DNA of 64,000 nt from Chlorophyllum brunneum (taxonomy: Eukaryota > Basidiomycota > Agaricomycetes > Agaricales > Agaricaceae). Numbering within the stretch: position 1 is the stretch's first letter; every line of letters starts with the position of its first letter. This document shows positions 25,494 through 59,028 of this stretch, one piece after another. The stretch spans positions 1,054,001 to 1,118,000 of the forward strand of contig OY756150.1 of the NCBI GenBank assembly GCA_963576785.1, read 5' to 3'. The notes under the pieces are model-generated. The model had not been told where the DNA came from. It saw only the letters and a list, made by a program, of their open reading frames with translations, and did no database searches. The position numbers were made by a program, and so were the translations under genes.

Positions 25494-28400
25494 CAATCCT
25501 CAAAAAAAGGCCTAGCCGAAGTAACCTAAAACAACAACCCATCAACAAACTATATCTTTCGGTAACAAGAGGATCTTATACTCACATTATGCATATACGT
25601 CGCCCAAGTCTCCTGCAACCGACTATCATCCGCCGCAATACCCCTAAGCGCAACCGTAGGCGTATACTGTTGTTGTTGTTGCTGCTGCTGTTGAGGCTGA
25701 GGCTGAGGTTGAGGTTGAGGAATTTGTTGATGCGTCTGTACCTGTCCCGGATATTGACCCGGATACTGCGTTTGATACTGTTGTTGAGTCGGATAACCTT
25801 GTTGAACCGGAGGTTGCTCCTGCACCACATTAGGCGCAGCGGCCCAATAGTGTGAATATGTCTCCTGTGAATACCCTTGTGACGGTTGTGAATATTGTAC
25901 TTGGGGCGCTTGAGTTTGAGAGTAAGGAGATTGAGTATCATACGGTGACATTGTCGCAGGTGAAGGTAAGGAAGCCATCGCATCTCGTGTAGTAGTGACA
26001 TACTGTTGTGGCGGTATAACATGTAATGGCTGCTGCTGCTGTTGTTGTGGTCCATGTTGCGGGTGTTGTTGAGGCTGAGGCTGGGGCTGGTACTGTGGTG
26101 TCGAGGAAGGTGTCGGTTGTTGATACATTGTCTCCGGCCCATACCCCGGTCTCAAACTCGACGTCGACATTCGACGTCCCGACGGTTGCGGAGCGGGCGG
26201 CGGCGGTGGTGGCGGTGGCATTCCCTGGTGCTGAGCCCGTCCACCAGCACTCTCGTCTTGTCCGTAATATCCTTCATACTGCTGAGGTTGCGGTTGATAA
26301 GTAGGCTGAGGGGTATACGACGTCTGATACTGTTGTTGTTGCTGCTGTTGTTGTCTCGCCCTCTGCATCTCGTACTCCTGTCTCTCCCTTCCTCTCCGTC
26401 TCTCCTCTTCTTCCCTCATCCTCCTCTCCCTCTCCACTTCCATCTGGATCTGTTGTTGATACTCCATCTCCCTCTGCTGCTGCTGCTGTTGTTGTTGTTG
26501 GAACTCAACACCAACCATATTCCCACCAACACTACGTGGTTCTTCCATCGTTACACTGACTTGACCTTGAGACGTCTCCCTCATCATCCCACCCGGACTA
26601 TAAGCACCACCATTATCCAAAAACGCTTGTCGAACTTGCGCTTCAATACGTCCATCGAATCCACGCAATTCATGCACCAAGCTCGGATGCACGCCTTCAA
26701 ATGACGGGTACTCATTCATCAACTGAGGTACCGGCGTCGGCTGCTGCTGTGGCAACTGTGATAACGGTTGCTGACCAGCATACATCGGCAGTACTTGACC
26801 CGGGACCTGTAAATGTCCAGGACTTCCCGAACTGGCCCGTGACGACGACGTCAAACTCCCTTCAAACATCATCAATATCCCCATAAAAAAACACAGTAAA
26901 TGAACAAACTCACCAGACGAATCCATCCTCTTCATAGCAGAAACGCTCACAACAGGCGAACGCGTCGCAACCGTATGCGTCTTCCCACTAAAAATCTCCA
27001 TCTCATTCTTCTCCTCATCCGTCTTGGAAGGTTTCAACACATCGTTGAATATACTCGGTGGCAACCCCTTCTCATTGTCCTCAAACGACTTGCGCGCTTT
27101 CGTCCGAAGTCGTTGTAAAATCGGCTATTGATAAAAATAAATAAAAAACCCGAACAGCGCCCGTCAGTTAAACCCTATCAACAGGAAGAAACGTGGTTCT
27201 TGCAAATGGAGACAATGCCAAACCAAAAGGCTGGGTAGTGGATAAGAATCCCGGGGGATCAAGTGGGGGTTGTGTGGTAGAGTAAGATGGAAGACCCCAA
27301 ATTACGAACCGAATAGATGGGTCCAAAACGAAGGATTCACTCACCAAAAACTTGACAGCCCTCCCACCATGCCTCGCGGCATGCTCAAACAACTCACACG
27401 CACTATCCAATTCAATCATAGCTGCATGTGCAACTTGTGATTGCTTGGACACATGCGTCGCCACTGACGCCAACATTACCTACAAACAAAAAAGAAACGA
27501 TGATGAGATATTGAATTTCACAAGGAACTGTGTTCCTTCTGTTTCCCACCCCAAGGAAAAAAAAACGGAAATAGATAGAAGCCAAGCAAAAAGGGCGGAA
27601 AAAACGGAAGAAGCGCGGGAGGAGGAAGGGCGGAAGGAAAGAAGAAGTCCGGGACAGAAATAGAACATAAAGGAAGATCAAAAATAAAATGAAATCCAGG
27701 TCCAGAACAAAGTTGCCGAAGCAACAAAGAAAACACTAGTTCGGAGAGAGGCAACAAAGCAAAGAAAAGAAAAACACTCACAGTCGCACTAAACGCATGC
27801 GTCCACAACACCCAAAACCTCGCAATCTGCCGAGGGAATAACCAAAACTGCTGTCTCACCGATCCCAAAATCGTACACGCGCTCCTATACCCGGCCAAAA
27901 AGCTCGGTGCATATTGACTCTTTATGGGGTCACCCGGATGTGTCGAGATTGCATGCGCGAAAAAACACCGGTGGATATACAGTAGCGCTGTGACAACGTC
28001 CATAAGTACATCTTAGAAGAGGACAAAAACGGTTTAGCGAAGCATACGTACTCAATTCTCGATAGTTGATCGGCATAAACCGACTCATCGTTTCTCCTAA
28101 TCCAAGTCCAGCCTCCACGCCGGCGCCTACACCCATATCCCCTTCAGTCCCCCCAGAAGCAGCAGCAGCAGCCGTAGCGGCCGCAACCATATTCTGAGCT
28201 TGCTGCGCATATAATGGCAACTCCATATCTCTGACTTTGCGATCCAAGTCGAGTATAATACTGTATTTGGGTGCGCGAGACGTTAGTGAGCCTTGGACTA
28301 CTGCTGAGACGCATTCGGCGCCGAAACGGGCTTTCCAATACGGGACTAATTTGATGGTGAGTAATGCGTAGAGAAGGGGGAGAAGAGAGAACGTACAGCT

Positions 28401-30499
28401 AGGTTGAATACTTCCGTCATCTGCAATTGTCGAATCTGGATCCAAAGGTAGTTCACAGTCGACAAATGGGAGCGAGAAGGTTGCCAGTCGTCCCGTTGCC
28501 AGGCTCTAAGAAAAGGTCCATATAGAGTGAAAAATGAGGAGTCGTCCTCGCACCTGCCAACAATCTGTAATAAACAACTCCCAGAATAATGCACGTCGTT
28601 TCTGCACTTCCGCCGGTAAAAGTTTCCATCTCGCACAGTCCCGATCTAGGAATGTCAAGTCGTCAACAAACAAACACAAGAATAAGCTTCAGGCAAAAAA
28701 GACTCACGCAGGCCAATACTTTGCGCCAACTTGACAGCCAAGCCAAACAAACTCCAGGTCCGCTCAATACTGCCATCCTTGGAACATATCCCCTCATATA
28801 TCGCCATCAAACTCAGTGTCTGAACCGTAGCCACACTAGGCGGTCTCTCCAAGACCGGTTCCAAGACCAGCGCCGCCTTTGTAAGTTGGTAAAACTCTTC
28901 CGAGACGATATTTTCTGGTGCAGCGGGTAATTGGATATCGGTTAACGCGCCGAAACAGAATATCATAAAGAGCAATGCTAGATCGTGTGCTGTTCGTGTT
29001 TGTTTTTTGTTTGATGCTGCTGCTCCTCCTGGCGGGAATAATTTGGCTGTAGAAGGGTGTTGGGTTGTTGTTGATGAAGATGAGGATGAAGAGTTGGAAT
29101 ATGACCCAGGGGAAGCGGCGTTGGCGACTTGACCTTCCACGGGACTTATTGGCGTCAATGGCACACCGCTAGCTCCAGGTGAAAGCACACTTCCACTATG
29201 CCCGCCGAAACCAACCCCTCTAGCTTCGAAATACCACATCGGTAACATTTCTTCAACCAATTGTCTCTTCGTCACGGCACCAAAGAACCACGGCGCTTGT
29301 TCCAAATACAATTGCGTCAATCTCCACGCTTCGTCCCATTTTGGTAGGTAGTTAATCAAGAGATAGTCCATGTCGATTTGGATAGATTGAAAGGCGTTGG
29401 AGCTGAGGGGGAAAGAGGCACCGAGAGCTGCTATAGATGCTCGCGAGGTGTTGGTGGAGGAGGAAGAGGTGATGATGGTCGGAGGTGAAGTCTGAGTATG
29501 TTGCTGTGAATGATGATGAATGACGTTTGGTGGTGAGAGTCTTTGGTGGTATTGGAGAGGTTGAGGTTGCTGCAAGGTGGTGGATGGTGGATTTTCAGCT
29601 TGAGGTGAAGTCTCGCCCTTGGAAAATCGTAAATTACAAGATCCGTGCGGTGTTGATAGCACTTACGATCAATAAACTCTGTGCGCAAGATAATTACGTC
29701 AATCCCAATCCACGGCAACCCAGTAGCGAAAAGCGTACCTCTGACCCAGCACTGCGTCCATAAAAAGTAGCAGCACCGTCATCTCGGATAGCCAAAGTGC
29801 CAAAAGCATCAATGACCGTCTCACCCTCCTCTTCCTCTTCTTCGGTTCCCTGTCTGCTCTTACCCTTGGCGGAGATGCCCTGGGAAGTCAAGACATCATC
29901 GTCAATGGCGGCGTGTAGTTCGATACTAGATTTGATCTTGAGGAGTTCGCGGGCGAGGAGTGGATGAGGTTCGCTGGAGAGGGTGGATTGGAGAATGGCT
30001 ACGGCGTCTTCGAGTTGGCGGATCCTGTCACTCATTTGGGCGATTTTTTGGTGAAGTTTTTCGGTATCCGCGAGAACGAATCTGAGGACGGGGGCTATGA
30101 GTTTGAGCGTGAATAAAGAGAACGGAGGGCATGCCGGGTGCCTTGGCCAGTGATGAGACTGCCGTTGGGACAGATGGCAGAGCATCCTCTGCGCTTGCAG
30201 CTGATCGCCAGAGTGAGCCGAGCAGGAAACGCGAGAGATGAAAGGTATGGGCACCTTGCACAAGGCACGGTCTTGTCGCATTTGAGCTTTAGGCTGTTGA
30301 CCCTGGTAAGTGAATGGGCATGACGCAAGGGGGCGAAAAGGACGCACCGTCGGCACTCTGCACACGAGAGGGCGCCTAGGGGAGGATGTTGGTGAGTGGG
30401 TGGCAGAGGAGAGGGAGAGAACAGACCCCGGGCACGTTTTGACTCCTTGTCGAGGGCCTTGAGCTGTGGATTTGGGTCCTTGCGGGATGAGGCAGGCAT
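25494..30499 (-). CDS. Zn2Cys6 fungal transcription factor TF1 with polyQ C-terminus
   Basis: The gene has many exons and encodes roughly 1,250 residues. Start ATG 30499 (MPASSRKDPNPQLKALDKES). Exons splice the zinc cluster SCAECRRLKLKCDKTVPCA then CKRRGC, followed by a coiled-coil-like linker KIAQMSDRIRQLEDAVAIL. The micro-exon SLLI is next, then the fungal TF middle domain (MDYLLINYLPKWDEAWRLTQ, APWFFGAVTKRQLVEEMLP, TAHDLALLFMIFCFGAL, LVLEPVLERPPSVATVQTLS, TWSLFGLAVKLAQSIG, YSIILDLDRKVRDME, SQYAPSFLAGYRSACTILGS, ELFEHAARHGGRAVKFL). The last large exon (from about 27126) is Gln/Pro-rich with several polyQ runs and a PPPPPPPP run, ending YMHNVTSARPFFED at 25494. Zn2Cys6 proteins bind CGG-type sites in the nucleus; the polyQ region is a likely activation domain. 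Target genes are unknown. TF2 at 47715-52701 is its paralogue. Confidence 0.86.
25670..26510 (-). repeat. CAA/CAG (polyQ) microsatellite runs in TF1
   Basis: Four clusters of CAA/CAG codons (near 25670-25740, 26030-26055, 26330-26355 and 26475-26505) encode Q runs of about 6-11 residues. They are separated by QPQP, YQTQ and PPPPPPPP stretches. The mixed CAA/CAG usage limits slippage but length polymorphism is likely. Confidence 0.85.
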
Positions 30500-30650
30500 G
30501 GTGAGAGGGGAGGGCTGAGAGGCATTGTGGGTGGCAGGGAGATAGGAGGCCATATAAGGCTGCTCCCACGTGGGCAGCCTCCAGGCCCAATCACCGCCGC
30601 CCTGACAACCCACGCCCGCCGAATCGTCAATTATCAATCTAAATACATCT

Positions 30651-43625: not shown

Positions 43626-45632
43626 ATGTGGGCGGCTCAGACTCGTAACTTGCGTGCCTTCTCACAGCTTTCTGTGGCTTCCAATGGCTTGCGTGCCTTC
43701 TCCTCTTCAACGAGGCGATGTAAGTACTTCGGTCTCCTTTCGATTCTTCATGTCCACCTGTCCCCGACTTCCCCACGTGAAAGGTGTTCCAACCAGCGGC
43801 CCGTAGTCTCTGCGCTTTCTTTCATCCTTTTGTGCAGCTCACACGCTAATCTTCATTACCTCGTTATTCCCTCTTTGTTGCAGATCGAGGCATGGTCAAT
43901 AAAATCGTCGTTCAAAACCCTGTAGTGGAGCTAGATGGTGATGAGATGACCAGGATCATCTGGAAGAAGATCCGTGAAGAGGTATGCTGCTTCCCACCAA
44001 CCTCTCTTCACGCCTCACACTGGCCTTGCCGCGTCCTTCGTCTAGCTCATCCTCCCATATCTTCAACTCGATATTAAGTACTACGATCTGGGGCTGGAGT
44101 ACCGAGACCAGGTCCGTGCTGCACTTTCTCCTCTGGCGCCTCTGCCAACGTCTCATTTACTGTGCATATATCAGACTAACGACCAAGTTACTACCGAGTC
44201 CGCTCACGCCATTCAGAAGTACAAAGTCGGTATCAAATGTGCGACCATCACGCCCGACGAGGCTCGTGTGGAAGAGTTCAAACTCAAGGAAATGTGGAAG
44301 AGCCCAAATGGCACTGTACGTTCCCTTTGCTTCTCACCACTTGGTGTCGTGACGCCGTGCTGACACCAAATATGCCGGTTAGATCCGTAATATCCTCGGA
44401 GGGACTGTCTTCCGTGAGCCCATCATCCTCAAGCGTATTCCCCGGCCCATTCCGGGATGGGTCAAGCCCATCGTCATTGGTCGTCATGCTTTCGGTGACC
44501 AGGTACACACGTCGTCCTCTTTCTTGGATTCAATTTACTGAATTCTTGGATCTTTCAGTACCGCTCGACGGATTACGTCGTTCCCGGACCTGGAAAACTC
44601 CAATTGGTGTACACACCCAAGGATGGTTCGACTCCCGTTTCCCTCAACGTGTATGACTTCAAAGCGCCTGGTGTTGCCATGAGCATGTACAACACTGACG
44701 AAGTACGTCATTGTCCATTCAGGGTTGTCGAGATTTTGTCGCTTAACTTAGGCTTGGTTTCTCTAGTCAATCACTGGCTTCGCACATTCTTCTTTCAAGA
44801 TGGCCATTGCCAAGAAGATGCCCTTGGTACGTCATCTGTCAATACATCAGGAATCTCTTGGCTCATGTATGCATCCAGTTCATGTCCACCAAGAATACCA
44901 TCATGAAAAAGTACGATGGTCGCTTCAAGGACATCTTCCAGGAAATCTACGAATCGTAAGTTCACCCCATCAGTGCATATACCGATTAACACCAGGACTT
45001 ATACTCTGTATAGTACTTACAAGTCTCAGTTCGATGCTCTTGGCATCTACTACGAACATCGTCTGATTGACGACATGGTTGCCCAGGCCATCAAATCTGC
45101 CGGCGGCTTCGTCTGGGCCTGCAAGAATTACGATGGTGACGTTCAATCCGACATTCTTGCTCAGGGCTTCGGTTCCCTCGGTATGATGACTTCCGAACTC
45201 TTGACACCCGACGGCCAAATCATCGAATCCGAAGCCGCACACGGAACTGTTACTAGGCATTACCGTGAATACCAGAAGGGCAACGAGACGTCGACGAACC
45301 CTGTTGCTTCCATCTTTGCATGGACAAGAGGATTGTTACACCGGGCCAAGCTCGATAAGAACGAGCCTCTGAAGCTGTTCTGCCAGGACTTGGAGAGCGC
45401 TTGTGTGGAGGTTATTGATGTGGAGGGTATGATGACCAAGGATCTTGCGATTGCGATCCATGGAAAGGACCTGAAGAGGGAACACTGGGTTATTACAGAC
45501 GTTTACATGGATGCCGTCAACGTGAGTGCCCCTTCATAGACTGATAAAGAAGCCACTGAACATATTTTGCTCTTTTTACAGGCCAAGTTACAGAAGAAGC
45601 TCGCTGCTCGCGGCATTGAGGCTAAGCTCTAA
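43626..45632 (+). CDS. IDP1: Mitochondrial NADP-dependent isocitrate dehydrogenase
   Basis: About ten exons give roughly 452 residues. Start ATG 43626 opens a mitochondrial-type presequence ([16 protein letters not shown]...RAFSSSTRR). The mature enzyme follows: [114 protein letters not shown], then the signature [20 protein letters not shown] and [20 protein letters not shown], ending [11 protein letters not shown] at 45632. It converts isocitrate plus NADP+ to 2-oxoglutarate, CO2 and NADPH in the mitochondrial matrix. Arg, Ser and Asn of the SPNGTIRN substrate loop and the Asp residues of the metal site are present. The NADP form is indicated by the overall IDP1-type homodimer sequence. All introns are short and the frame is intact throughout. 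Confidence 0.95.
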
Positions 45633-45933
45633 ATATGGGTGAAACCAAAGCAGATGCTGCACAACTATCAACTTATCAACCTACCGGAGACTTGCACATA
45701 TTACGCTACTTCTAGTAACCTCATTTACTGTCTCATTTGTTTATAAGGATGGACTACTTATCTTGTCATCTATCTCCCTTGTATATGGATAGTAGTTGTG
45801 TGTATATGTACATGAGGCGTGTATAACCCGGTCCACCACTACCTGGGGGCCCAATTTCCTTACGAGAACTCAAGGTTGTGAAATTTCTCAGCCATCGACA
45901 GAGTTGAAGGATCCCTGCGATAATTCACACCGA
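45633..45933. other. Convergent 3' flanks of IDP1 and the F-box gene
   Basis: This is about 300 bp between two converging genes. It is T-rich near 45740-45790. No gene is seen. Confidence 0.5.
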
Positions 45934-47424
45934 TTAATCCATGACAGAGAAGACTGAGATGGCACACCCGCACCTTCCGAAAAGGTCCGATTTTATCTCC
46001 TCGACGAAGGTTAGCTTCAAGCCAGTTTCTTCTGGCACCCTCTGTAAGCACTCCCGTGTCCCCGCTGACCATTGGACCGAAACATTCTTCAGTTCCAGAT
46101 AAAATTCATTGACATTCTTTCGAGCTGCCCTCGCCCGAATCATCTCCAATATCAAGTCACCACAGTCTGCAGGTACTTCAAGGCACCCATATCCTATTGG
46201 ATCAATGATCTCAAGTCGCCTCAGCTTGGGCAGGAATCTTGCATCCACGAGACACGTCAGCGTCTGGGATACAGTGGTTGGATAAGCGCAGCAGTTAATA
46301 GTCAGGGCCTCTATTTGGAGGTTTCTTGGGATGTATTTTAAGATGCAATCTTCTATTGGGTCGTTGTCCTCGCAGGACATTGCAAGATGAAATGTTGAGA
46401 GAGTAGGGGGAAGGTGATTGCAAAAAGCTTGTAGTGAGGATTGGCGGCCATGACCCGACCGTACCCTAAGATATAGTTTCTGGAGTGCAGGCAGATGAAG
46501 ATGTTCAAACATCCTTAATTCTGCTGGATCTGCTAAGATACCCCATCGAAATATCTTGAGGGCGTCACGAGTTGTATTGTCTACCCATGTCAGCGGTGAA
46601 GGTTGAGGCGTTCCGCGTTCAGGGTATGCATAAAACTCCACAACGTTGGTGCATAATGCAAGTAGGGTTAAACACGCATTCAACCCCACAGTCCCCAGTT
46701 TCAAGATGGTGATCGTTGACCAATTGGTTCCGACAGGGCGTAGATCGATGTGAGAAATATTAGAGAAAGAGAGCTCATGGAGGTGCGGAGAATTCGGGAA
46801 TGATGCTAGAGGAGGAGTGGTCGGATATCGAACATAGCAAATAAAGGAAAAAGACGTAAGCCGAGGAAGTTGGGAGGTATAGGAAAGCCATTTGGGAGAA
46901 GGTTCATATAAGTGTAAGCTTCTGATGCGATTCAGATTCTCCAGGATCATGCCATCAACGGAACGATGAATGAGGACATTGGGCTTCGGCCATTCATTGG
47001 CAACATTATAAATCCGGGGACGACCAGGAGCGAAGGAAGCCTGGATATCCAAATCCAAGGTCCCAGAGCAACGAAGATGGAGACGCAACAACTCCAAGCG
47101 TCCCTCCGTCACACGCCAGTCGTCAAAGTTGAGTAAAATAAATGTCCATAGTTGAGGACTCGAATAAACAATTTGTCTCCAGAGGGATGAAACTCCAGCA
47201 AGCGTGAGTTGGAAGTGGTTAGGATGGAAGCCATCGCGATTACGAGCGTTGGAAGTTGATCTACTCAATTGGCAGGCATGTTCAAATATGATGGCAAGAA
47301 TTTCTGGAGCTAATCCTTGCGTTGACGATTGTAGGACGTTGACCCCCTTCTGCGTGAGCACCTTCTGTCCAGGGGGAGGTAGCGAGCGCGATGAGCGTAA
47401 TTTCATGACTGTCGTGATAAGCAA
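45934..47424 (-). CDS. F-box/LRR-like protein, single exon
   Basis: One uninterrupted frame encodes 496 residues. After a short basic start, an F-box-like motif reads GLAPEILAIIFEHACQLS, then LTLAGVSSLWRQIVYSSPQL and W. The rest has irregular leucine-rich repeats (LNRIRSLHLYEPS, LPRLTSFSFICYV, SPHLHELSFSNISHI, LPALQKLYLRVRSG, LPKLRRLEIIDPIG). F-box proteins of this layout are one of the largest families in mushroom genomes and act as substrate receptors of SCF ubiquitin ligases through Skp1. The substrate is unknown. An N-terminal start about 6 codons later (MKLRSSRSLPPPG) is equally plausible. Confidence 0.82.
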   Translation of the reverse strand: MLITTVMKLRSSRSLPPPGQKVLTQKGVNVLQSSTQGLAPEILAIIFEHACQLSRSTSNARNRDGFHPNHFQLTLAGVSSLWRQIVYSSPQLWTFILLNFDDWRVTEGRLELLRLHLRCSGTLDLDIQASFAPGRPRIYNVANEWPKPNVLIHRSVDGMILENLNRIRSLHLYEPSPKWLSYTSQLPRLTSFSFICYVRYPTTPPLASFPNSPHLHELSFSNISHIDLRPVGTNWSTITILKLGTVGLNACLTLLALCTNVVEFYAYPERGTPQPSPLTWVDNTTRDALKIFRWGILADPAELRMFEHLHLPALQKLYLRVRSGHGRQSSLQAFCNHLPPTLSTFHLAMSCEDNDPIEDCILKYIPRNLQIEALTINCCAYPTTVSQTLTCLVDARFLPKLRRLEIIDPIGYGCLEVPADCGDLILEMIRARAARKNVNEFYLELKNVSVQWSAGTRECLQRVPEETGLKLTFVEEIKSDLFGRCGCAISVFSVMD

Positions 47425-47714
47425 CTGAGTGATAGGTGACTCAGTGACCGACCCCCCTTGATCTCAACTGGGAGAGTCGATGGAGACCCTCAAGCTTCCA
47501 AGGCCTCGGGTCACACGGCCCACGAGTGCGTGTTCAACACGATCAAGTCCCCTGGTCAGTGAATCAGATATATTGTGGCAATACTAGCAAAATCTGAGGC
47601 TGATACTTGCTAGTGGTTTCTATTTCGGCGGGTTGTCGTAGGATGCTCCCTTTGTCCGCCGCACTTCAAACCGTAAAAATAGGAGATCATGCATATATTG
47701 CGAACCACAGTTTT
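47425..47714. other. Spacer between F-box gene and TF2-NACHT 3' end
   Basis: About 290 bp with no coding signal. It serves as the 5' flank of the F-box gene and the 3' flank of TF2. Confidence 0.5.
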
Positions 47715-48855
47715 TTAGTATACATCGGAAATACAATAACTACGTGATCGCGTGGGAGTTCGAAGGAATTCTATCAGGTCCGGATGGTGGAACTCAAGGT
47801 TCTGAGATGCTGCATCTTCGGGCGCTGGGATTCGGAGGATGGGATGGAGGTACTGAAGACCCATGTATGCATCGTCTTCAGTAATGTTCAATACATCACA
47901 GATCGCTGGAAGGGTGCGATTTCCGGCATCAGGTAGCGATTCTCGAACACAAAGCACCGCTAAGATCCTCCTGGTTGTTTCGTAGATGACAGGTGGTATC
48001 CTCTCAAGGACTTTGAGACATAGGGAATCGAAAGCAGAGGGTGGAGGGGATCCTGTTACGTTCCTCAATCCATCCAAAAGTAAGACCAACTGGTCTAGTT
48101 GGCGAGGTGGTTCTGATATCCATGGATCACCGACATATCGGGCAGAAATTATGACGAAGGCGAGTGACCCTGATGCCGTCGCGAGAACCTTCAGAATTTG
48201 GTGATAGGATGGCCAGGGTGGATTGGAGCCGAGATGATACATCCGTCGGATGATGCTGAACTGACCCGGGAGATATACTTCTGCGTCCCGGAAGGATTGG
48301 TTGTTGTCAAGGAAAATGTCCTCCTTCACAAAGTGAATCAGGGAAGAGTCTGGTAGATGTTCGACCTCTTTACTAGAAATTGCCCAAAGAAGAGGGGCAG
48401 TGGGGTAGTGCTCGATAAAATTTGTTATGAGTCGAATTTCATCTACGGCCTGAGGGGGTAGGGCATCAATCACTATCAACCACGCAGCCGGTCCGAGTTC
48501 AACTTCACCGCATCCGAAAGGCTGCACAATGAGCAACTGAAATTGCTCAGATATTGATGCCCGCTCGAGCAGTCTAGGGTTTTGTACCATGACTCCCTCG
48601 ACGTAAGCCCGATACGACAGATTTTTCAAGCTCAGGTCGTAGCTGATGGCGGAGAAGACCTGGAGGCGAAGAGATTCATCCGCATTTCGAATGTATGCAG
48701 CTCCAGCAAGACGACCGGCCGCGGCAGCAGTACTTGCCAAGCCCTGCATGAGGGCGGAATTCCCAACCCCATCCAGTCCGCAGATCCAAAAAAGGTTCTC
48801 CTTCCGCCCTTCGTTCCAGAACCAATCCACTACTCTCTCGAAGGTGGCAAGACGA
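47715..48855 (-). other. NACHT-like module inside TF2 (pseudo-ATPase)
   Basis: This marks the part of the TF2 last exon that aligns with the NACHT gene at 52842-55625. The P-loop position (about 48753-48779) reads GLDGVGNSA, where the neighbour has GPAGVGKTA; the codon is AAT. The Walker B position (about 48457-48486) reads VIDALPP, where the neighbour has LLDGLDE. The helical post-NACHT part, ending near RTPTRSRSYCISDVY, is retained. Confidence 0.8.
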
Positions 48856-51800
48856 GTGGCTGGATGGCTGAGGGAGTAAGGAGAGGGCACTGGAGGGATG
48901 AGATAGTTCTGGAAGGAGGATGCCTGGGCGGTTTGGAGTGAGCCACTCTGGGGCCAGTTGGCTTCGGCATTATCTGTAGGTACTGGACTGGTGTTCAGTG
49001 ACATAAAAAATTCATCCGTTGTTCCTAAGAGAGGATTAAACGAATAATCGTCGTCCTCCGAAGTTCCAAGAGATGGAACTGCCAGAGGGTCGGGGCCTAG
49101 AAGGGGATGTGAAACTGGTGAAGCCGTTATTTCTGGTGTATCTAAACTCCAGAACGAGGAGAATATATCTATGCCATCAGAACTCATGGTGGCCAGGGAT
49201 GGTTGGGGTTCATCTAGCATATATCGGGTTGGAAAAAAGCTAGGGGATCGAGAGGGGGGATGAGGGGGAGAAGGGGGTGGGGAAGGGAGCGGGGAATGTC
49301 CTACGGAACTGATGGGTGAAGGTGAACCTTTAGTAGGAGACCACTGCTGCTGAGAACCAACACTAGCTTGGTCACCCATGTAAGCCTGCCTAATCTGTGC
49401 TTCGACCCACTCATCAAATTCGTGTAGCTGGTGCAGTAGACGAGGATGCACCAACGATTGGTACTCTGTTGTCCGCTCCGTTTTTTTTCCTGTTGATTTT
49501 TCCAAAAGTTGGGATAGTATGGGCCGCTGGTGACTATATGCTCCCCGTATACGATCAGGGTTCTGATCTGCGGAACCCCTCGCAGATGATGTTCTGCCGA
49601 TTGCGCGTGTGATTCCACACAGACTCAATAGCACATTTTCCTCCTCATCTGCGTTTAAGGGTGCCGATCTCGCACTTGGGGTGCTGGATTGGGTATCTTC
49701 AAATGCTTTGTTTGCCTTGGTATGTAGTCTTTGAACAGCTGACTATTACCAGCACATGAGTAGCAGGGGTTGTCAATGCACTGGAAGACAACAGGAAGGG
49801 GACAGGACGCGTTAAGTATCGACCCCACTCACCAGAAACTCAGCAGCTCTGCCGCCGTGCCTGGCTGCATCCTCGAACAGTTCGTACGCACTGTGGAGTT
49901 TGATCAGCGCTACGCGTACGACCGGGGACGTCTTTGATACATAAATTGCCGCCGACGCCAACATGACCTGGGGAATTTGAATGGATCAGAAATAGGGCAT
50001 TTTCAGTAGGGGGTGAAGTAGCAGGAAGAGGAATGATGAATGATGCACACAAGAAAGCAGCGAGTAATCTACCGAGGGAAGAAGGGAATGCAGAAAATCA
50101 TGTAATGAAGATGGAAATGGTATAACTCCGAGTAAGACATACCGTGGCAGTAAATGCATGGGTCCATAGAAACCAGAACTTTGCAAGCTTTGTAGGAAAT
50201 AACATGAATTGCTGCTTGACTGCCCCAATGATTTCACAGGCACTTCGGAACCCCGTCAAGAAGCTTAGAGCATATTGCGATTTGAAGGGGTCATAGGGGT
50301 GGGTCATTATTGCATTTGCAAAGAAACATTGATGGAGTCGCAGTAGAGCTATCGAAGGTGATCAGGCACCTGAACCTCGGAATGATGGAAGAGAATATTA
50401 TGCTCAACTCGAATCCTGGTAGTGGTGTGGCATGAAATTCTTCATCATGTTTGTAAAACTCGTTGTTGGCTGCAATTGATTTAACTCCGGAGTCGATACA
50501 CCCCTCAATTTTCGATCCAAACCAAGTATGGTAGTATACTTAGGCATGCTTGAGGCCGACATAGCTTGAGCGACTGGTGACAAGCAATCGGATGTGAAAC
50601 GGGCTTTCCAAAATGCAACTAACCAAGTAGTTGAGTCGAGGTATAATTGATAATACATAAAGTAATATGTGGGGGAGAGGGACGTACAACCAGGTTGTGA
50701 GGAGCTGTCGCCTGGGCTTTTTTCCGAATCCACGGGCAGCTCACAATTGACAAAACTAGGAGAGAACGTTGTGGGGCGGCCCATTGTTAAGCTCTAGGGC
50801 ATCTTCTCAGCGAGAGCCGATGGAGTTTCGAATTTTCACGACTGTACCTGTGAGCAATCTGCTGCAAACAATTCCCAGAATAATGCTCTCCGCTTGTGCA
50901 CCTCTTCGGGGCTCAGCTTCCACCTGGCGGCGTCACAATCTGTTACATCCAGATGGTCAACCTTCATCAGTACGACTTCCAGACTAAGGCTCACGCAATC
51001 CCATCTGTAAGATATATTGTCAGCTTCTGAATGTCAATCCCTTTCAATGACGCCCACCCTCTGCGCCAGCTTGGCTGCCACTCCGATCAGGCTCCATGTC
51101 TTTTCAATACTGCTGCCCTCTGAAAAAATTCCTTCATAAACTCCCATCAATGCAAGCACCTGGATGGTCGCGATACTCGGTGGTCTCTCTAACACAGGCT
51201 CCAACATCAATGCAGCCCTTGTCAGCTGATAAAAATTCTCGGATGTTTTATTGTTTGAACTCTTGGACGAACCGTCATCTGCAGAGGCACCAAGGCAGAA
51301 TATCATGAATATCAATGCTAGATCGTGTGCCGTACGTCCCATATCTTCACGTTTCTCGCGTTCATGTCCAATACTAGTAGCAAAAGCCCCAGATATTCCA
51401 TAGGATGTACTATCAGCTAGGGGGTTGTTAGAGGCAGACGTCGATAAGGCTTCTCTCAGATTCAACAATGGGTCATTGCCAGCCCAGGGGTCAGGAGTTT
51501 GGGCTTCGTGGTACCACATTGGTAGGATATCCTTCATCAATTGCATCTTTGTCACTGCATAAAAATACCACGGTGCCTGTTCGAGATAGAGCTGTGCCAA
51601 TCCCCATGCTGCTTCCCGCTCCGGTAAAAAGTTGGTGACAAGGTAGTTCATATCAACATGGTCAATTTGCAGTGTGCTCGAGCCGATCGGAAAAGAGGTG
51701 CTGAGTGGGGCTAAAGATATACGGGCAGACTGGTTGATGTCCTCGGGAAGGTAAGCGTGAGGAGTTCGGTGGGGAAACATAGTATGTGGCAGCCGTTGTG

Positions 51801-52701
51801 TGTCATCTTGCTGAGGTTGGTTGGGATCACTGGTAGGATTATCTTTCTGGTTACTGGCTCGTGGTGTGTTTCCCTGGAGAAAAAAGAGTTAATGAGGCAA
51901 ACACCAGCGAAACATCATCCGATAGATTCCACTCACGATCAATAAACTCTGTAGGGTTGTGAACATCGTTTCAACAAATAGGCTCTCGCATGACCAAAGG
52001 CACCTACCTCGCAACCGGCAGTCCGGCCATACAGCGTCGTAACTCCATCATCTCCAACTACCACAGTCCCAGAACCGAAGATCGTTGTTCCTTCATTTTG
52101 TTCTGGTTTCTTACTCTGGGTGACCATATCGTCATAAAACGCAGGATTCGATTCGATGACTAATTTGATCTTGAGGAGTTCCGGCGAAAGAAGTGGATGC
52201 GGTTCAGTACTGATCGTGGCTTGTAAGATGATGATGGCATCTTCGAGTTGTTGAATCCTGTTGCTCATCTGTGCAATCTTCTGGCGCAGCTTTCCTGTAC
52301 CGTCACGGATAACACTTCACTCGGGTATATAGAGAGTCATAGTTCAATACGGGAATTGCGGCACATAGAGAATGGACGTACCGAGATTCATATGAACACT
52401 CTAAGTCCCTCGCGACGCAACTGCATTGTACAAGATTGAGAAGGCAAGAAAAATTGAAATTGGTTGCAGACAAGACACACTTTCCACAAGGCGTGGATCC
52501 ATCACACCTCACTTTGCGCCTGCCCAAGGATAGTCATACAATCAGCCAATGAATGACGGTAACACAATGGATGGATTACATTCGACACGGACCACATGAA
52601 CGCTGGCCTGCAAAGGACAAGTAATCAGTCGGTGAGTTGTAGAGACAGGCATGACATTACAGACTCCTTCGTTTTTCGTGTGAAGAGGAAGCCTGGGACA
52701 T
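47715..52701 (-). CDS. Zn2Cys6 transcription factor TF2 fused to a degenerate NACHT module
   Basis: The protein has about 1,350 residues. Start ATG 52701 (MSQASSSHEKRR) splices to RSCGPCRMRKVRCDGSTPCG and NCVARDLEC, a complete six-cysteine zinc cluster. Then come KIAQMSNRIQQLEDAIIILQ, the micro-exon SLLI, and the TF middle domain (MNYLVTNFLPEREAAWGLAQ, APWYFYAVTKMQLMKDILP, TAHDLALIFMIFCLGA, MLEPVLERPPSIATIQVLAL, SQYALSFLTGFRSACEIIGA, ELFEDAARHGGRAAEFL), parallel to TF1. The last exon runs from about 49747 to 47715 without a stop. It keeps TF1-like sequence to YQSLVHPRLLHQLHEFDEWV, passes a Pro/Ser linker, and becomes NACHT/NLR-like: VVDWFWNEGRKENLFWICGL, DGVGNSALMQGLA, ISYDLSLKNLSYRAYVEGVM, AWLIVIDALPP, ASGSLAFVIISARYVGDPW, VIYETTRRILAVL. 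Walker A has Asn for Lys and Walker B lacks its acidic pair. It ends before the C-terminal region found in the neighbouring NLR. Confidence 0.85.
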
Positions 52702-52841
52702 GGTCAACTTCTAATGAAGAAATACTGATTGCGTCTAAGTACCATACCCATCATTGGACTGATCACATGGTCATCTCTCAATAACAAAGAATAACAAGTC
52801 CAGACTCGTATCGAGCTACTTATATACATTGTCGTTATACA

Positions 52842-55625
52842 TCAGCGATAAGGGATAAAATAAACCTCCCAGACCACGTACGCAGCCCCGCTTTCGGAGC
52901 CTTGCTTATCCTGGTTGGTGCCTCCGGCCATGCGAGGATAACCCACGGATCCCGTTAGTTTTTCTCCAGTTTGGAACGTGCCTTCAAGGCGAGACGCAAT
53001 TTTGAATAATGCACCCTTTGTCGAGCTTGTGCAGCCCCAAATCATCACCGGGGTGGAAGCAAAGAAATCTCCTATCGACCTTAGGTCGTCATAGTTACAG
53101 GCCTCCTATCATGGAGTGTGAATTATCATGAGTATGTACCTATGAAACGCTGTTGGGCTTACCCTACGGAGACCAGATTTGAGAAAACGATAGCGAGTTA
53201 GTGACTTAGTAGGGTCGACCTTGTTGAGATCCAAAGAACGAAGGGTATCATGTTCTACCAGTCCGCTCCTCTTAACCTCTTCAGGGTAAAACTATAAGGA
53301 TCGGTGAGTATAGAATCACTGAATCGTGGTTGTACATACTTGGCAGAGGCTTCTGAGCGAATCTAGGAAATCAATAGGTACGGAGCCAACCGATGGCATA
53401 TACTCGGCGAGTTTACTAAAATCCACTTGTCGAAGCATTGCCACGAGTTCGAATACAGGAACGTAGACAGGAAAGTTGCGCAGCCCTCCCAATCCAACCC
53501 AGGGGCCAAAAGGTCGAATCTGAGAGAGGCTACAGGCCCAGCAGTTTTGAGCTTCCTGAAATAGTCGACGTCGTAACGCCTCATCTCTCAGTAGGTCGCC
53601 ACTCTGCCATGCGAGTTTGATGGATGAAACACCTTCAGGATGATGAACACACATAGATAAAGTATCATGTTTAACTCACCACCGCAACTGGCCTGCTGGA
53701 TAACCCTGAAGTATGCACGCCAGTACTCCCCAACCGTCCTAACTAAATGAGCCCGCGAGATGCCGAAGTCTTTAGATCTACTTGGGTCTAGAAGGAATTC
53801 CGAAAACGAGTTGTGGAAAGTTGTAATATTATGGCAGTGGGCGAGATCTGGTGGAGGGATGTTAAGGACAGAATGCAAGTTCTGGAGGGCGGCATAGGCA
53901 ACATGTTGCGGGATTCCCATTATGTTGCAAACTTGCAATAACGGATAACTCGGGCCTCTGAATAAAGAGTAAGCCAACATTCTCCTAGTGTTCTCATACA
54001 TCTTCGGCAATATCTTCTTGAGAATCTCGGTGTACATCATATCCAAAGCGCCAAATGGATGATCGGTCCTGACTTCGCCATTCGATGGTACAGTCTTCTG
54101 GACCACAGAAAGGACGTCAGCGAGGCGATCAATGGGATTCCCAACGGAAGAATCCTGAATGAATCGAACGAGTACAGCCGCAAAAATAAAATAACCAGAC
54201 CCGGCGCGGGCGATCTTTAAGACCTCATCATCGGAAGGCCAAGACTCCGACCCAGTAAAATGGGAAGGATACTGTTGGGTAAGGGCGCAAAGTGCACTTT
54301 TGAGATATCGTTCCACATCTTGACAAGCTTCAGCGGAGTCGACAGTTATATTTTCCTTGAGGGTGCATGCGCTGATGTCCTTGAGAGAGAAGATCGAGGT
54401 AAGATAATGCTCCGGTCTGCTCGCCACCACCCATACAAGCGGGACAGTGGGATGTTCTCGCACGAAGGTGCTGATGAGACGGATGACCGTACATTGGGCT
54501 TGCTCGTAACCTCGATCGTGGTCTTCAGTTCCTCTGCACTCATCTAAGCCATCAAGAAGAATGGCCCAAGGTTGTGCACTGTTGAGGACTTGTCTTTGCG
54601 AGCATGGAATGACAAAAAGTTTTTCGAACTGTTTTTCTAGTGCCTTCTGATGGTAGAGGGGGTCCGTACGCCTGAGTTCGGTCATATAGGCCCGATATGA
54701 AGCGTTCCTTAAGGATAGATAATAGGAAATGGTGGGAAATATCCGGTCTAGATAGTTGGTATCTGATTTGGAGAAAAAAACCGTAGCCGCAACGCAATCC
54801 GTTCCAGCAGCAGTGCTTTCGTCTTCTGCAACAGCTCGCATGACTGCGGTTTTGCCGACGCCTGCAGGCCCAAAAACCCACAAGAGCTTTTGATCACGGC
54901 TTTCATCGTGAAGCCAGCTGTGTACACGTCGTCTGATAGCGACGCGAGTGTTAAGATGACAAATAGGAGATGAATCATGGTTGAAGGAATCGAACGAAGT
55001 TCCTGTGAGTATATGCTTCGTCTGCCAGGAGAGTACTAATAACGGGAATAATTTCAGACAAAATCTTGGTATGGATACAGGATTGTGATATACCTTCGGT
55101 ATACTCGTCGCGATCAGCGTGCACATGAACATTTTGGACCTCGCTCATGATGGGATTTTGCAATACGATATTCTTGGAGTGGGAGAACAGACCACTTGTC
55201 GTCGTACCTCGGGAAAGACCTAGTAAATTGATTAAACACATCAAGCCGGTGTGGTGGAAGAGGGCCCTGACCGCGTACCTTGGGGTAGCATCTCTCTTAC
55301 TGGAGGTGATTCGCTTGGGGTTGGTGCTTGCGAATCGTGCAGACGGCTGCTGCCGGGATCTGTATCTTGAGTTGAGCTGATGTGGTGAGCAGTTAACGGA
55401 AAACTAACTATGCGATTCATTTGGTGGGGGGTTGTCCACCAGAAGCTCTGGGTCACTTGAAGTATCCGCATGCAGTCGGCGCACTTTAGTGGGGCCGGGG
55501 CTTATAAAAGTACCATTTCGCTTTAGGTTTCCTATGCTCTCCATTGGGCCTTGATGAAGGTAATTGTCGATAATTGCTCTTGTGGCCAGGCTTTTGGTAG
55601 CAGTCAGTGGTGGTCTGCGGGACAA
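52842..55625 (-). CDS. NACHT-domain NLR-type protein with intact P-loop
   Basis: A multi-exon gene. The N-terminal exon (from 55625, MSRRPPLTATKSLATRAIID) is basic and matches no known effector domain. It splices through small exons to GTTTSGLFSHSKNIVLQNP and IMSEVQNVHVHAD, the 'GMFxNSxNVxxxG' lead typical of mushroom NACHT proteins. The large exon (53700-55010) holds RRRVHSWLHDESRDQKLLWV, the P-loop FGPAGVGKTAVM (about 54850), SYYLSLRNASYRAYM, Walker B ILLDGLDECRG (about 54530-54560), TVPLVWVVASRPEHYL, and the post-NACHT region ITTFHNSFSEFLLDPSRSKD. Two or three further exons end SGAAYVVWEVYFIPYR at 52842. STAND ATPases of this kind are the fungal NLRs linked to non-self recognition and cell death. 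No WD40, ANK or TPR repeats are seen. The start and the small 5' exons are tentative. Confidence 0.8.
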
Positions 55626-55721
55626 AGGTGGGTTGGGCGCCTGAGCGATGGTGGTCCCATCACATGTCAGGTACAGCTGTGGAATTACGAGATCTCCTCA
55701 CAGAAGGGAAATCACGAAACA

Positions 55722-55795
55722 TCCCTTGCTCTTTGTGGGCCAGGCCACGGAGGAAGCTCACCGCCTGTGTCGTTGCAGCTAAGCTCTAAATATTC
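55722..55795 (+). repeat. Scrap of IDP1 last intron and last exon
   Basis: The stretch ending GCTAAGCTCTAAATAT closely follows the IDP1 end at about 45565-45637, including GAAGCTC and, before it, a TTGCTCTTT...CAGGCCA intron end. Only about 70 bp are clearly alike and small gaps are needed. It is a duplicated fragment rather than a gene and sits just upstream of the NACHT gene start. Chance similarity cannot be excluded without alignment. Confidence 0.5.
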
Positions 55796-55962
55796 CTGCA
55801 CTCTCGCCACACTAGATATGCACCTCAAACCACCAAAGGCAGGTGGTGTGCTGAGTTGATCCAATCGTTCAATCGTTCGCATATATTTCTTTCTCGATCA
55901 ATCTTGTATATCAGTGACATCAGTGACATCAGTAGCTACAAATGAAAAGTCAATTGAAATTC

Positions 55963-56939
55963 TCAAGGGCAGAAGGTTAGAGTGTAGTCAGCCGCGAGGC
56001 TGGCTGGGCAATTGAAAAGAGCTGTTCCGCTAGATTCGTCGTAAGCGTAGACGTAAGTCCTGGGACAATTGGACTTGAAGTAGTCATAGTAAGCAACACC
56101 AGAGGCCGGGCAGGTCGCGGGGGTGTTGTGGGAGCCAGAACAGCAGTTGGCAGAATCGGCTGGAGAAAGTACGTGAGGGTGTGCTTGGACAATAAATCCC
56201 TATAACACACCTTGATTTCCGTCGAGGTTAGCAAAACAGGCGGACTTGCAGCCGACTGGAAAACCGGTAGAGTCGAAAGGACCCTTGAGAGGGGCAGGGC
56301 AATTAGGGCCCAAGTCGGTTGCACACTCAGCGACTGGGCAGCCCTTGTTGTTGCTGATCCTCATAGGGAGGTTGTAACCATCCACAAGCGAAACTGTCAA
56401 CCATTTAGAACCATGGACTGGTCTCGACAAGTCTAAAATGGCTCACCATCGTACCAATCGTTGCCATCGTCAGCACCAAGCGTCCATTCAGCAACGGAGG
56501 CGGGAGGAACACCAGTGCCAGTGTGGGCATCACACACGAGACCACCGTTGCAGCCACCGGTAAGGCAAGAATTGGGGCCGGGATTTGAACTGAAGTCGCA
56601 ATTGCGACGGCCCCAAATACGACCAGCGCGCCAGTTATTTGGGACGCTGAAAGTTTGGACAGACCAAGCCGGGGCCTCCCAGCCAGTTACGTGGTTAGGA
56701 ACAGCAGACCCAACATTAAGGTCGGTGAAGATCTAGCTCAGAATCGTCTATGAATACAGGAATAATAATTGCCGCTGACATACTCACAGCAGGCCTAGCA
56801 AAATTATCAGCCTGGAGCACAACTGAAGTAATGGGTCACGAACGCACCAGATAGTAAAAGGGCAAGCATTGTACACCGTAAACGTACGGGCTGCGGTGCT
56901 AGAGACAAGAGCAAAAGAGGCGGCAAGTTGGAACTTCAT
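55963..56939 (-). CDS. Thaumatin-like protein 1
   Basis: Six or so exons give about 253 residues. Start ATG 56939 begins a signal peptide (MKFQLAASFALVSSTAA, cleavage before RTFTV). The mature part has FTVYNACPFTIW, PAIFTDLNVGSAVPNHVTGW, WRAGRIWGRRNCDF, NSCLTGGCNGGLVCDAHTGT, VAEWTLGADDGNDWYDVSLV, DGYNLPMRISNNKGCPVAEC, PVGCKSACFANLDGNQ, NCCSGSHNTPATCPASGV, YFKSNCPRTYVYAYDESSGT and a final DYTLTFCP. The Cys spacing and the REDDD-type residues (Arg of GRRNC, Glu of AEW, Asp of the following acidic stretch) define the thaumatin family (PF00314). Fungal members are secreted and often cleave beta-1,3-glucan, fitting wall remodelling or defence. A TATAAA lies at 57004-57009, 65 bp before the ATG. 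The frame is intact. Confidence 0.92.
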
Positions 56940-57724
56940 GGTTCAGGCTTCGAGATTTATCGAAGGATGAGTCGTTAACACCGGGAAGACAAGAGAGGGT
57001 CTCTTTATAGCTGGACTAGCTACCAGACTAGCCACTCAACATATTCTTCTTCGTTAAGTCTGCGAACACCAGATCATATGAACCATGACGCGACCCGATG
57101 GCCCAACGGCGGATTTTTCGGCACCGAACATTGGTTGAGTAGTCCGAAGGCGGAAAGAACTGGAGCCTCATGCGAAGCTGCTCCGAAGCAGGGCAGTCTT
57201 GATAGTCTTCCTAGCAATGATACGGAATCAAAAAAAGCGATCAGACGCAGATATCAGTTCGCCATACTTTAATCGGTCAGATGTTGTGGCAGATACTCGC
57301 TAAGACAGTATCTCCGAACTCAAAATAGTCAACAGATCATTTTCAAACACATGGGCTCCATTAAAATGTCATTTGAACAGTCTTGTGTTCACCTATGCGT
57401 CGGGGTGGGGGACACCCGCACTCCAGATGATGGGGTCGGTAATCCATGCGAAGTCAGAACCACCAGGTTGGCCAAGCCGTAGATCACAAGGTAAAGCAGG
57501 GTATTGTAAGCAGGGTATGTCGCAGAAGCCCAGAGAGTACCCTAAAGTTAACGATAACTGAGGACTTTACCGGTGAGCCCATGAGGACAGCTTCAAAGCG
57601 GGACCACGTGCACCGCCGCCAAGACCGAAGTTTAGGACACCCCGTAATATAACATCACTGATTACTGAACAGAAACGCGAATTTGGTTATACATGCAAGC
57701 TGGTCCATTTGACTTCAAGGAACT
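56940..57724. other. Spacer TLP1-TLP2
   Basis: Apart from the TLP1 promoter (TATAAA at 57004-57009, minus strand) and the 3' flank of TLP2, I see no gene. Short plus-strand frames at 57078-57272 and 57373-57652 lack family resemblance. Confidence 0.5.
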
Positions 57725-59028
57725 CTAAGGGCAAAACGTCAGGGTGTAATCTGCCTTGAGACCTGCATCACAGGTCCACAGTGCGGTCCCACTCGATTCG
57801 TCGTATGCATATGCATACGCATTACGACAATTGCTCTTGAAATAACTGTAGTATTGGACACCTGGATCCCGATAAACCTATCTTCGTCTTCTTGAGCGAA
57901 CAAATATTCGGAGCCTGACTTACCAGAGGCGGGGCAGGTCTGCGGGGTGCTATGACTCCCAGAACAACAGTTCGGAGAATTTCCTGGTCATTAGGAAAGT
58001 TGACGCATGGTTAGTACAATTACACAACATAGGAATTCGAATTTAATCATACCTTGGTCGCCATCAAGATTCGCGAAGCATGCGCTCTTGCAGCCCACGG
58101 GGTTTCCAGAGGAATCATAAGGTCCTCTGAGTAGAGAAGGACCTGGTAAGAGATGTCATCGGATTCTCTGTTCGTACCTGGGCTGTGGTTATCAGCCACA
58201 TGTTCACTCACACTTCGGGTTCAAGTTTGTGGGACAGTCGGCTACGGGACATCCTTTATTGTTGGTAATGCGCATGGGGAGATTGAATCCATCCACGAGT
58301 GATACTTTCATCCGATATCAATCAGTTCACGAAACGATGGGATGGGTTGCTCACCATCATAAAAGTCGCGATTTCCATCTGCCTCAAGCGTCCATTCGGC
58401 CACTGTCGCAGGTGGTACTCCCTGGGAGAGGTCTAATGTCAAGGAAAAATAGCCTAATGCCGAATTTTTGAAGCACTGACAGTTCCTGATCGAGGATCAC
58501 AGCGTAAGCCGCCATTACAACCTCCTGTAAGACAGGAACCAGGGCCAGGGTTTTTCGAAAAGTCACAATGACTCCTACCCTGTTGAAGTATGATAGGAAT
58601 TAGTTTTCCACGTTCAATGGAACAGTGAGGACGCACCCAGATACGACCAGCCTTCCAACCGTCTGGAACCGTAAATGTAATAGAGGACCCTGGCTTAGCT
58701 TCCCAGCTGGTGCGCGGCGCGAATTAGATGCTTTCTTAGGATAATAATCAGAAGTCGATGAACTTACCCAGTCGGATGATTGGGTACGTTTGGTGCAACG
58801 TTTAAATCAGTGAAAATCGCAGGCCTTGAAAATATCACGGGATTATTGTCAGTGAAGCTGAAAACCACCTTCAAGGCTCATGAAACACACCAGACCGTAA
58901 ACTTGCACGAATTGCGAACCTCGCATCGTCAGGTAAGTAATCTGATTGTTTGTCAACAGCAAAGCAACACTCACTGTGAAAGTGCGAGCAAAAGCACCTG
59001 GAAGAATGCTGAGCAGATACAGCTTCAT
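57725..59028 (-). CDS. Thaumatin-like protein 2
   Basis: This gene shares the TLP1 layout. Start ATG 59028 gives MKLYLLSILPGAFA as signal peptide, then RTFTVRNSCKFTVW, PAIFTDLNVAPNVPNHPTGW, EAKPGSSITFTVPDGWKAGR, SHCDFSKNPGPGSCLTGGCN, GGLRCDPRSGT, GVPPATVAEWTLEADGNRDF then YD, VSLVDGFNLPMRITNNKGCP, VGCKSACFANLDGDQ, NCCSGSHSTPQTCPASG, and the end DYTLTFCP at 57725. The introns sit at the same places as in the other copies, with extra ones near 58070-58200. It differs from TLP1 by longer introns and more divergent sequence, so it is an older duplicate. A TATA-like ATATATAA lies about 60 bp upstream (near 59087-59095). Confidence 0.88.

Follow-up and report, generated by a model that had tools for sequence, protein, structure and literature searches.

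The stretch of DNA analyzed here, referred to as the window, comprises 64,000 nucleotides (64 kb) of contig OY756150.1 of Chlorophyllum brunneum (positions 1,054,001 to 1,118,000) and contains, on its minus strand at 52701-47715, a gene in which a fungal transcription factor (TF) and the core of a nucleotide-binding oligomerization domain-like receptor (NLR) are joined in one reading frame. At the DNA level this TF-NACHT architecture is real and confirmed. The gene, designated TF-pseudoNACHT, starts at an ATG at 52701 and consists of 14 exons encoding 1357 amino acids (aa), which are joined in a single frame by 13 GT-AG introns of 51–175 nt with no internal stops. From the N- to the C-terminus, the deduced protein contains a Zn2Cys6 cluster, a Fungal_trans domain, a linker that is first Ser/Pro-rich and then acidic, and a NACHT/STAND (signal transduction ATPase with numerous domains) module. 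The splice sites are our own choice, and the borders of exons 1–4, with the off-consensus donors GTCTGT and GTCTGC, are the least certain; inclusion of an exon of 10 nt (50995-51004) recovers LAQ..GLH..ARWKL, a sequence of the family. A sequence-only reading of this DNA had claimed that the junction lies within one open exon of 678 codons, and the last exon (49742-47715) is indeed open throughout, with a measured length of 675 codons.

In the TF half, the zinc cluster and the fungal TF middle domain named in the same reading both pass their Pfam cut-offs in a domain search of the translation. Zn2Cys6 clusters follow the pattern C-x2-C-x6-C-x5-12-C-x2-C-x6-9-C, and exons 1–4 of the splice model (52382-52701; CGPCRMRKVRCDGSTPCGKCVFCVARDLEC) supply all six cysteines as CGPC-RMRKVR-C...C-VF-C-VARDLE-C, an assignment that depends on the weakly supported donors of these exons (Zn_clus PF00172, E 1e-4, 22.7 bits vs. 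a cut-off of 21). The protein would probably bind DNA through this predicted cluster. Exons 5–13 (49833-52314) encode a coil-like linker, recognized by eye, followed by the middle domain (Fungal_trans PF04082, E 2.6e-26, 92.7 bits vs. a cut-off of 23). The TF-like sequence claimed to continue into the last exon was also found there: the first 124 codons of this exon (49371-49742) form a TF-derived tail with a VHPxL...EAQxRQA motif, in which VHPRLLHQLHEFDEWVEAQIRQAYM corresponds to the VHPSL motif found in TF homologs, and homology to the latter extends to codon ~124, at about 49371.

The same window contains, about 17 kb from the fusion gene, an ordinary paralog of this TF (about 25550-30590, minus strand, the outer limits being those of open frames). 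It lacks a NACHT part, and its glutamine-rich tail carries GIAADDSRLQETWATYM close to the end. Joined pieces of it are 87% identical to the Leucoagaricus protein P0001 (AN958_05229) over 584 columns, and exons 5–13 of the fusion are 44–70% identical to the paralog in matched minus-strand stretches. The TF half of the fusion is a duplicate, since diverged, of a TF conserved among Agaricomycetes. This family was represented by 99 homologs (P0001–P0099, several of them partial entries) that include Agaricus bisporus AGABI1DRAFT_121521; with strict patterns, at least 58 of them contain the VHP motif and at least 46 an LQETW-type end. The Fungal_trans domain and the VHPxL...EAQxRQA tail are common to the family and the fusion, as is a zinc cluster, seen by eye in P0001. 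The last ~40 residues of P0001, behind LQETW, resemble a retroelement polyprotein by eye and are probably a gene-model error.

The fusion copy has diverged far from these homologs, with an identity of at most 55–57% over kept columns and a very long branch (3.29 changes per column in a 37-row tree and 2.53 in a 19-row tree). The larger tree leaves its position unsettled, while its grouping with three Agaricaceae rows in the smaller one (87/68) is suggestive but not firm. Relative to the paralog, the proportions of nonsynonymous and synonymous differences are 0.29 and 0.775, respectively, the latter being saturated, and some of the aligned stretches may include intron edges. Unlike the fusion copy, none of the 99 homologs was returned with a NACHT domain, their precomputed Pfam annotation giving Fungal_trans, apart from one protein that also lists Zn_clus and another that lists no domain, and a BLAST comparison of the NACHT part with the same 99 proteins gave a best E of 3.9. 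Conversely, a NACHT search of proteins of 746–2374 aa returned six, none with the TF-NACHT architecture. Each of these searches, for TF homologs and for NACHT, scored only the ~8000 candidates sharing most words, and within this scope the sequence-only reading, which knew of no standard fungal TF family with a NACHT C-terminus, is supported.

The C-terminal NACHT/STAND module (aa 972–1357, 47715-48875) was assigned by homology and predicted fold. NPHP3_N, a P-loop model also matched by NLRs of this genome, gave a C-terminal match at E 7e-4 and 20.3–22.5 bits, below its cut-off of 24.8, and PF05729 (NACHT) was not reported for the fusion protein in the Pfam search. Since the Pfam score falls below cut-off, the identity of the module is drawn from matches in its own genome, from the public sequence P0106, and from the predicted fold. 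A search of the genome with the NACHT part yielded 105 matches including the query itself, the best of the others with 34% identity (E 5e-58). These 104 other NACHT-type matches are 26–35% identical to the query, and several are clustered on contigs 6, 7, 9, and 13. P0106, which passes NPHP3_N at 44.2 bits and scores 21.2 against a cut-off of 26.7 for PF05729, is the reciprocal best match of the NACHT part, with 51% identity. The two are sisters at 100/100 in a tree, with branch lengths of 0.82 for the fusion and 0.64 for P0106, so that any decay of the module is not much faster than in a relative with intact motifs. Along about 385 codons, the NACHT half contains neither a stop nor a frameshift, though it differs from P0106 at 49% of the positions aligned. 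An AlphaFold2 prediction of the module had a predicted local distance difference test score of 86.0 and a predicted template modeling score of 0.83, and in structure comparison it matched the STAND/AAA+ fold, the matches including the maltose-system structure 8bob and Sir3; a profile search of solved-structure sequences gave weak matches to replication proteins (E 0.003–0.009).

The sequence-only reading had treated this part as an NLR-type NACHT module serving as a sensor or decoy; its description as a sensor was not supported, as the NACHT half lacks features of an intact NLR switch. Its Walker A reads GLDGVGNSA, with Asn in place of the Lys of GxxxxGK[ST], and where Walker B motifs follow hhhhD with an acidic pair (DGLDE), its own reads LIVIDALPP, in which the first Asp is kept and the acidic pair has become Pro-Pro; the corresponding sequences of P0106 are GPAGVGKSA and IDALDE. 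A census of motifs covered 97 of the 104 non-self matches in the genome, the remaining seven missing the P-loop. The P-loop Lys and the first Walker B Asp are present in 97/97 loci and the Asp-Glu pair in 91/97, and some of these loci hold stop codons yet keep the P-loop Lys. Loss of this residue in the fusion, against none of 97 elsewhere, fits a changed role but would fit an unused tail equally well. The tripartite organization of an NLR, in which an N-terminal effector and C-terminal repeats enclose a NACHT or NB-ARC domain, is also lacking, with no repeat family reported in Pfam and NLR flanks missing on both sides. The frame stops nine residues past the FHHPDLIEFLRTPTRS (FHH...PTRS) segment, while P0106 and most paralogs extend further, and the NLR N-terminal signature DSSARxPPPxCHPGTR was sought in the linker and found absent, SHPATR alone being left. 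Candidate relics of NLR 3' exons behind the stop at 47715 were rejected, the best (E 0.007) lying inside the next gene.

The two halves are connected by the 165 codons that follow the TF tail (aa 807–971, 48876-49370), which begin Ser/Pro-rich and turn acidic further on, where aromatic and aliphatic residues also occur. Acidic and hydrophobic composition of this kind occurs in activation domains, and in composition the linker is activation-domain-like. A 168-codon stretch over the linker lacks stops, the other two forward frames having nine and eight, and a stretch of this length was open by chance in 1, 3, and 11 of 4000 Markov simulations with three background compositions. Coding potential was assessed in 13 windows of the last exon with a codon score trained on nine stretches of open reading frame in the 64-kb window. 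With stops penalized, which makes the score depend on the openness of the frame, the reading frame was best in all 13 exon windows; with stops ignored, it was best in nine, a weaker signal. All five windows that overlap the linker favored the reading frame under both scores, two of the stops-ignored margins being 0.02–0.04. The G+C content of third codon positions in the last exon was 0.39–0.44 in windows from codons 1–201, 0.57–0.58 in those from 251–301, and 0.43 at the NACHT end, a shift that is only suggestive as a marker of the junction.

Our leading interpretation, which we hold tentatively, is that the gene encodes a neofunctionalized TF with an NLR core captured in frame as an ATP-independent docking module. 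In this Agaricaceae-like genome, a block extending from the TF to an isocitrate dehydrogenase gene would have been duplicated in tandem. A relic of the 3' end of that gene (55718-55793, plus strand), 73% identical to 45559-45636 of the gene itself, which has an Iso_dh domain, is located beyond both the fusion gene and an adjacent NLR gene and appears to mark this duplication. In the second copy, an NLR may then have been inserted or NLRs may have expanded, with loss of the border between TF and NLR. The spare TF copy would have evolved fast, losing its ordinary glutamine-rich C-terminus with the LQETW motif, and would now be read in frame through the linker into the NACHT, helical, and winged-helix-like parts of a former NLR core; the own ends of the former NLR gene are gone from the DNA. 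Insertion of the NACHT part inside the TF tail was considered as a separate route and rejected, with no GIAADDxRLQETW remnant in 45600-53000 and a best match (30/90) inside Fungal_trans. Without the Walker A Lys, no ATP cycling is expected of the module; it would fold as predicted but would not bind or hydrolyze ATP normally. NACHT domains assemble with each other, and docking of full-length NLRs is for this reason the most economical function that can be proposed. If the fusion is translated and enters the nucleus, the module would most likely serve as an ATP-independent docking surface, e.g., for the intact, full-length NLR encoded next to it, and docked NLRs would be brought to, or away from, a promoter. 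That an ATP-dead NLR core was domesticated as a docking module through which full-length NLRs of non-self recognition act directly on promoters, as a eukaryotic TF-NACHT pseudo-switch, is doubtful at present.

Several observations weigh against the docking module. With stops ignored, another frame outscored the reading frame in four of the 13 exon windows, three of them within the NACHT part. The fusion has been seen in one genome only and is known from DNA alone, and P0106, from a contig of 2477 bp, is listed as a protein of 406 aa whose start Met lies within the domain; this hints that the upstream frame may be closed in that relative, where the fusion may thus be recent or missing. Current selection on either half is not measurable because synonymous sites are saturated, and relaxed constraint is possible because the TF branch amounts to 2.5–3.3 changes per column. 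It is conceivable, if somewhat unlikely, that the fusion is transcribed and translated while its NACHT part is a functionless passenger, the tail-like relic of a truncated NLR on a spare TF. Loss of the NLR ends on either side and of Walker A and B, the very fast evolution of the TF copy, and the restriction of the fusion to one genome are in keeping with a passenger tail, whereas the uninterrupted codons of a half that differs so much from P0106, a branch just somewhat longer than that of P0106, and the confident fold prediction are not. However, if the fusion is recent, these codons, branch, and fold reflect older constraint on the NLR. The fusion may postdate the divergence from P0106, the listed start of which hints at an independent gene, and for this reason a passenger tail explains the data almost as well as a docking module does.

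It is unlikely that the locus produces two transcripts, with the TF ending or being spliced before the NACHT part, the NACHT core being a separate gene that starts at a linker Met, and the shared frame being incidental. The linker does contain in-frame Met codons (MLDEP, MSSDG, and MSLNT), P0106 is listed from a Met in the domain, and splice-site pairs, e.g., 49361-49309, are present in the tail and linker. Against this stand the rarity of so long an open stretch in the simulations and the codon score of the linker, which is highest in the fusion frame. Hidden introns in the last exon were rejected, since candidate pairs were no commoner than in codon-shuffled controls, although the scans are weak: seven pairs were found against a shuffled mean of 7.7, with thresholds that 10 of the 13 real introns pass, which makes the count uninformative, and a scan made stricter by requiring a branch point found zero pairs against 0.39 expected, using a branch motif that is missing in seven of the 13 real introns.

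The adjacent NLR-type gene (52842-55144, minus strand; main exon 53588-55144) has intact GPAGVGKT and LLDGLDEC motifs, and its 3' exons, placed by eye, end about 140 bp before the ATG of the fusion gene on the same strand. RRS1, a TIR-NLR-WRKY protein, is found beside RPS4 in plants, and by analogy the TF-NACHT protein might be an integrated decoy or guard, i.e., the bait or sensor partner of its intact neighbor. In an integrated-decoy pair, the sensor bears the decoy domain and interacts with an executor NLR to which it is genetically linked. We regard such an arrangement as improbable here: a dead P-loop in one partner and an intact one in the other would suit it, as would the proximity of the genes, but the order is reversed, with the TF first and a truncated NACHT part last, no repeat domain is reported, and the neighbor, at 33% identity, is no closer to the fusion NACHT part than other NLRs of the genome. 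In fact, it ranked behind five other loci, with others reaching up to 35%, and a recent copy derived from the adjacent NLR was rejected because several distant NLRs are as close. That two loci were wrongly joined near 49200 during assembly is very improbable, as the window is internal to C12, a large contig in an assembly of 14 contigs and 38.9 Mb, a genome search with 48867-49418 (the linker, the last ~16 TF codons, and the first three NACHT codons) returned the self match alone, and a false join would need to have kept the frame with zero stops, even though this case is built on assembled sequence, not reads.

Non-self recognition, with cell death and heterokaryon incompatibility as its outcome, is the role for which fungal NLRs are chiefly known. 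The bacterial STAND TFs AfsR (SARP-NB-ARC) and MalT combine a DNA-binding domain with a STAND module in one chain, as the fusion does, and in AfsR the DNA-binding domain comes first; they differ in their DNA-binding folds, in a working ATP switch, and in tetratricopeptide or other sensors. Sir3, a chromatin protein with an AAA+-type fold and no ATPase, offers a precedent for the proposed mechanism, although it derives from ORC1 and the fusion module from an NLR. In the available accounts of plant RRS1 and YrU1, an NLR module is likewise joined to a TF DNA-binding domain, but these are full NLRs with an integrated WRKY, whereas in the fusion a full TF ends in a truncated NACHT part whose P-loop is dead. 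Chimeras of TF and STAND modules are thus already known in bacteria and, from those accounts, in plants, and the fusion is a further, new variant. If our interpretation is true, a TF containing an NLR core would connect non-self sensing directly with gene expression, and a nucleotide switch of NLRs would have become an inert domain for interaction. Fusion of genes following a tandem duplication beside an NLR gene would be one possible origin of new NLR architectures.

The NACHT-core homology and predicted STAND fold of the fusion are shared with the fungal NACHT NLRs described in the available parts of three reports (PMC4986451, PMC9815663, PMC12258605), from which it differs in its N-terminal TF, the lack of reported repeats, and the loss of Walker A and B. 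Zinc fingers were found in 57 Sordariales NLRs (34 C2H2 and 23 treble-clef), 52 of them C-terminal, and the passages on NLR zinc fingers mention no Zn2Cys6 (PMC12258605). In the available text, the term “DNA-binding” is absent from all three reports, Fungal_trans from PMC9815663 and PMC4986451, and Zn_clus from PMC12258605; the passages of a further article (PMC4859500) are unrelated to the fusion. No fungal Zn2Cys6-NACHT fusion was found among the titles and abstract openings listed from the open-licence literature.

An Rfam scan of 44000-58000 gave zero matches at gathering scores, and a comparison with a plasmid collection, which carries no weight for a fungal gene, gave none either. On the minus strand, 45934-47463 contains an open frame of 509 aa with a start that is F-box-like by eye and no Pfam match at E 0.01, and a small gene at about 55980-56940, also on the minus strand, is thaumatin-like by eye.

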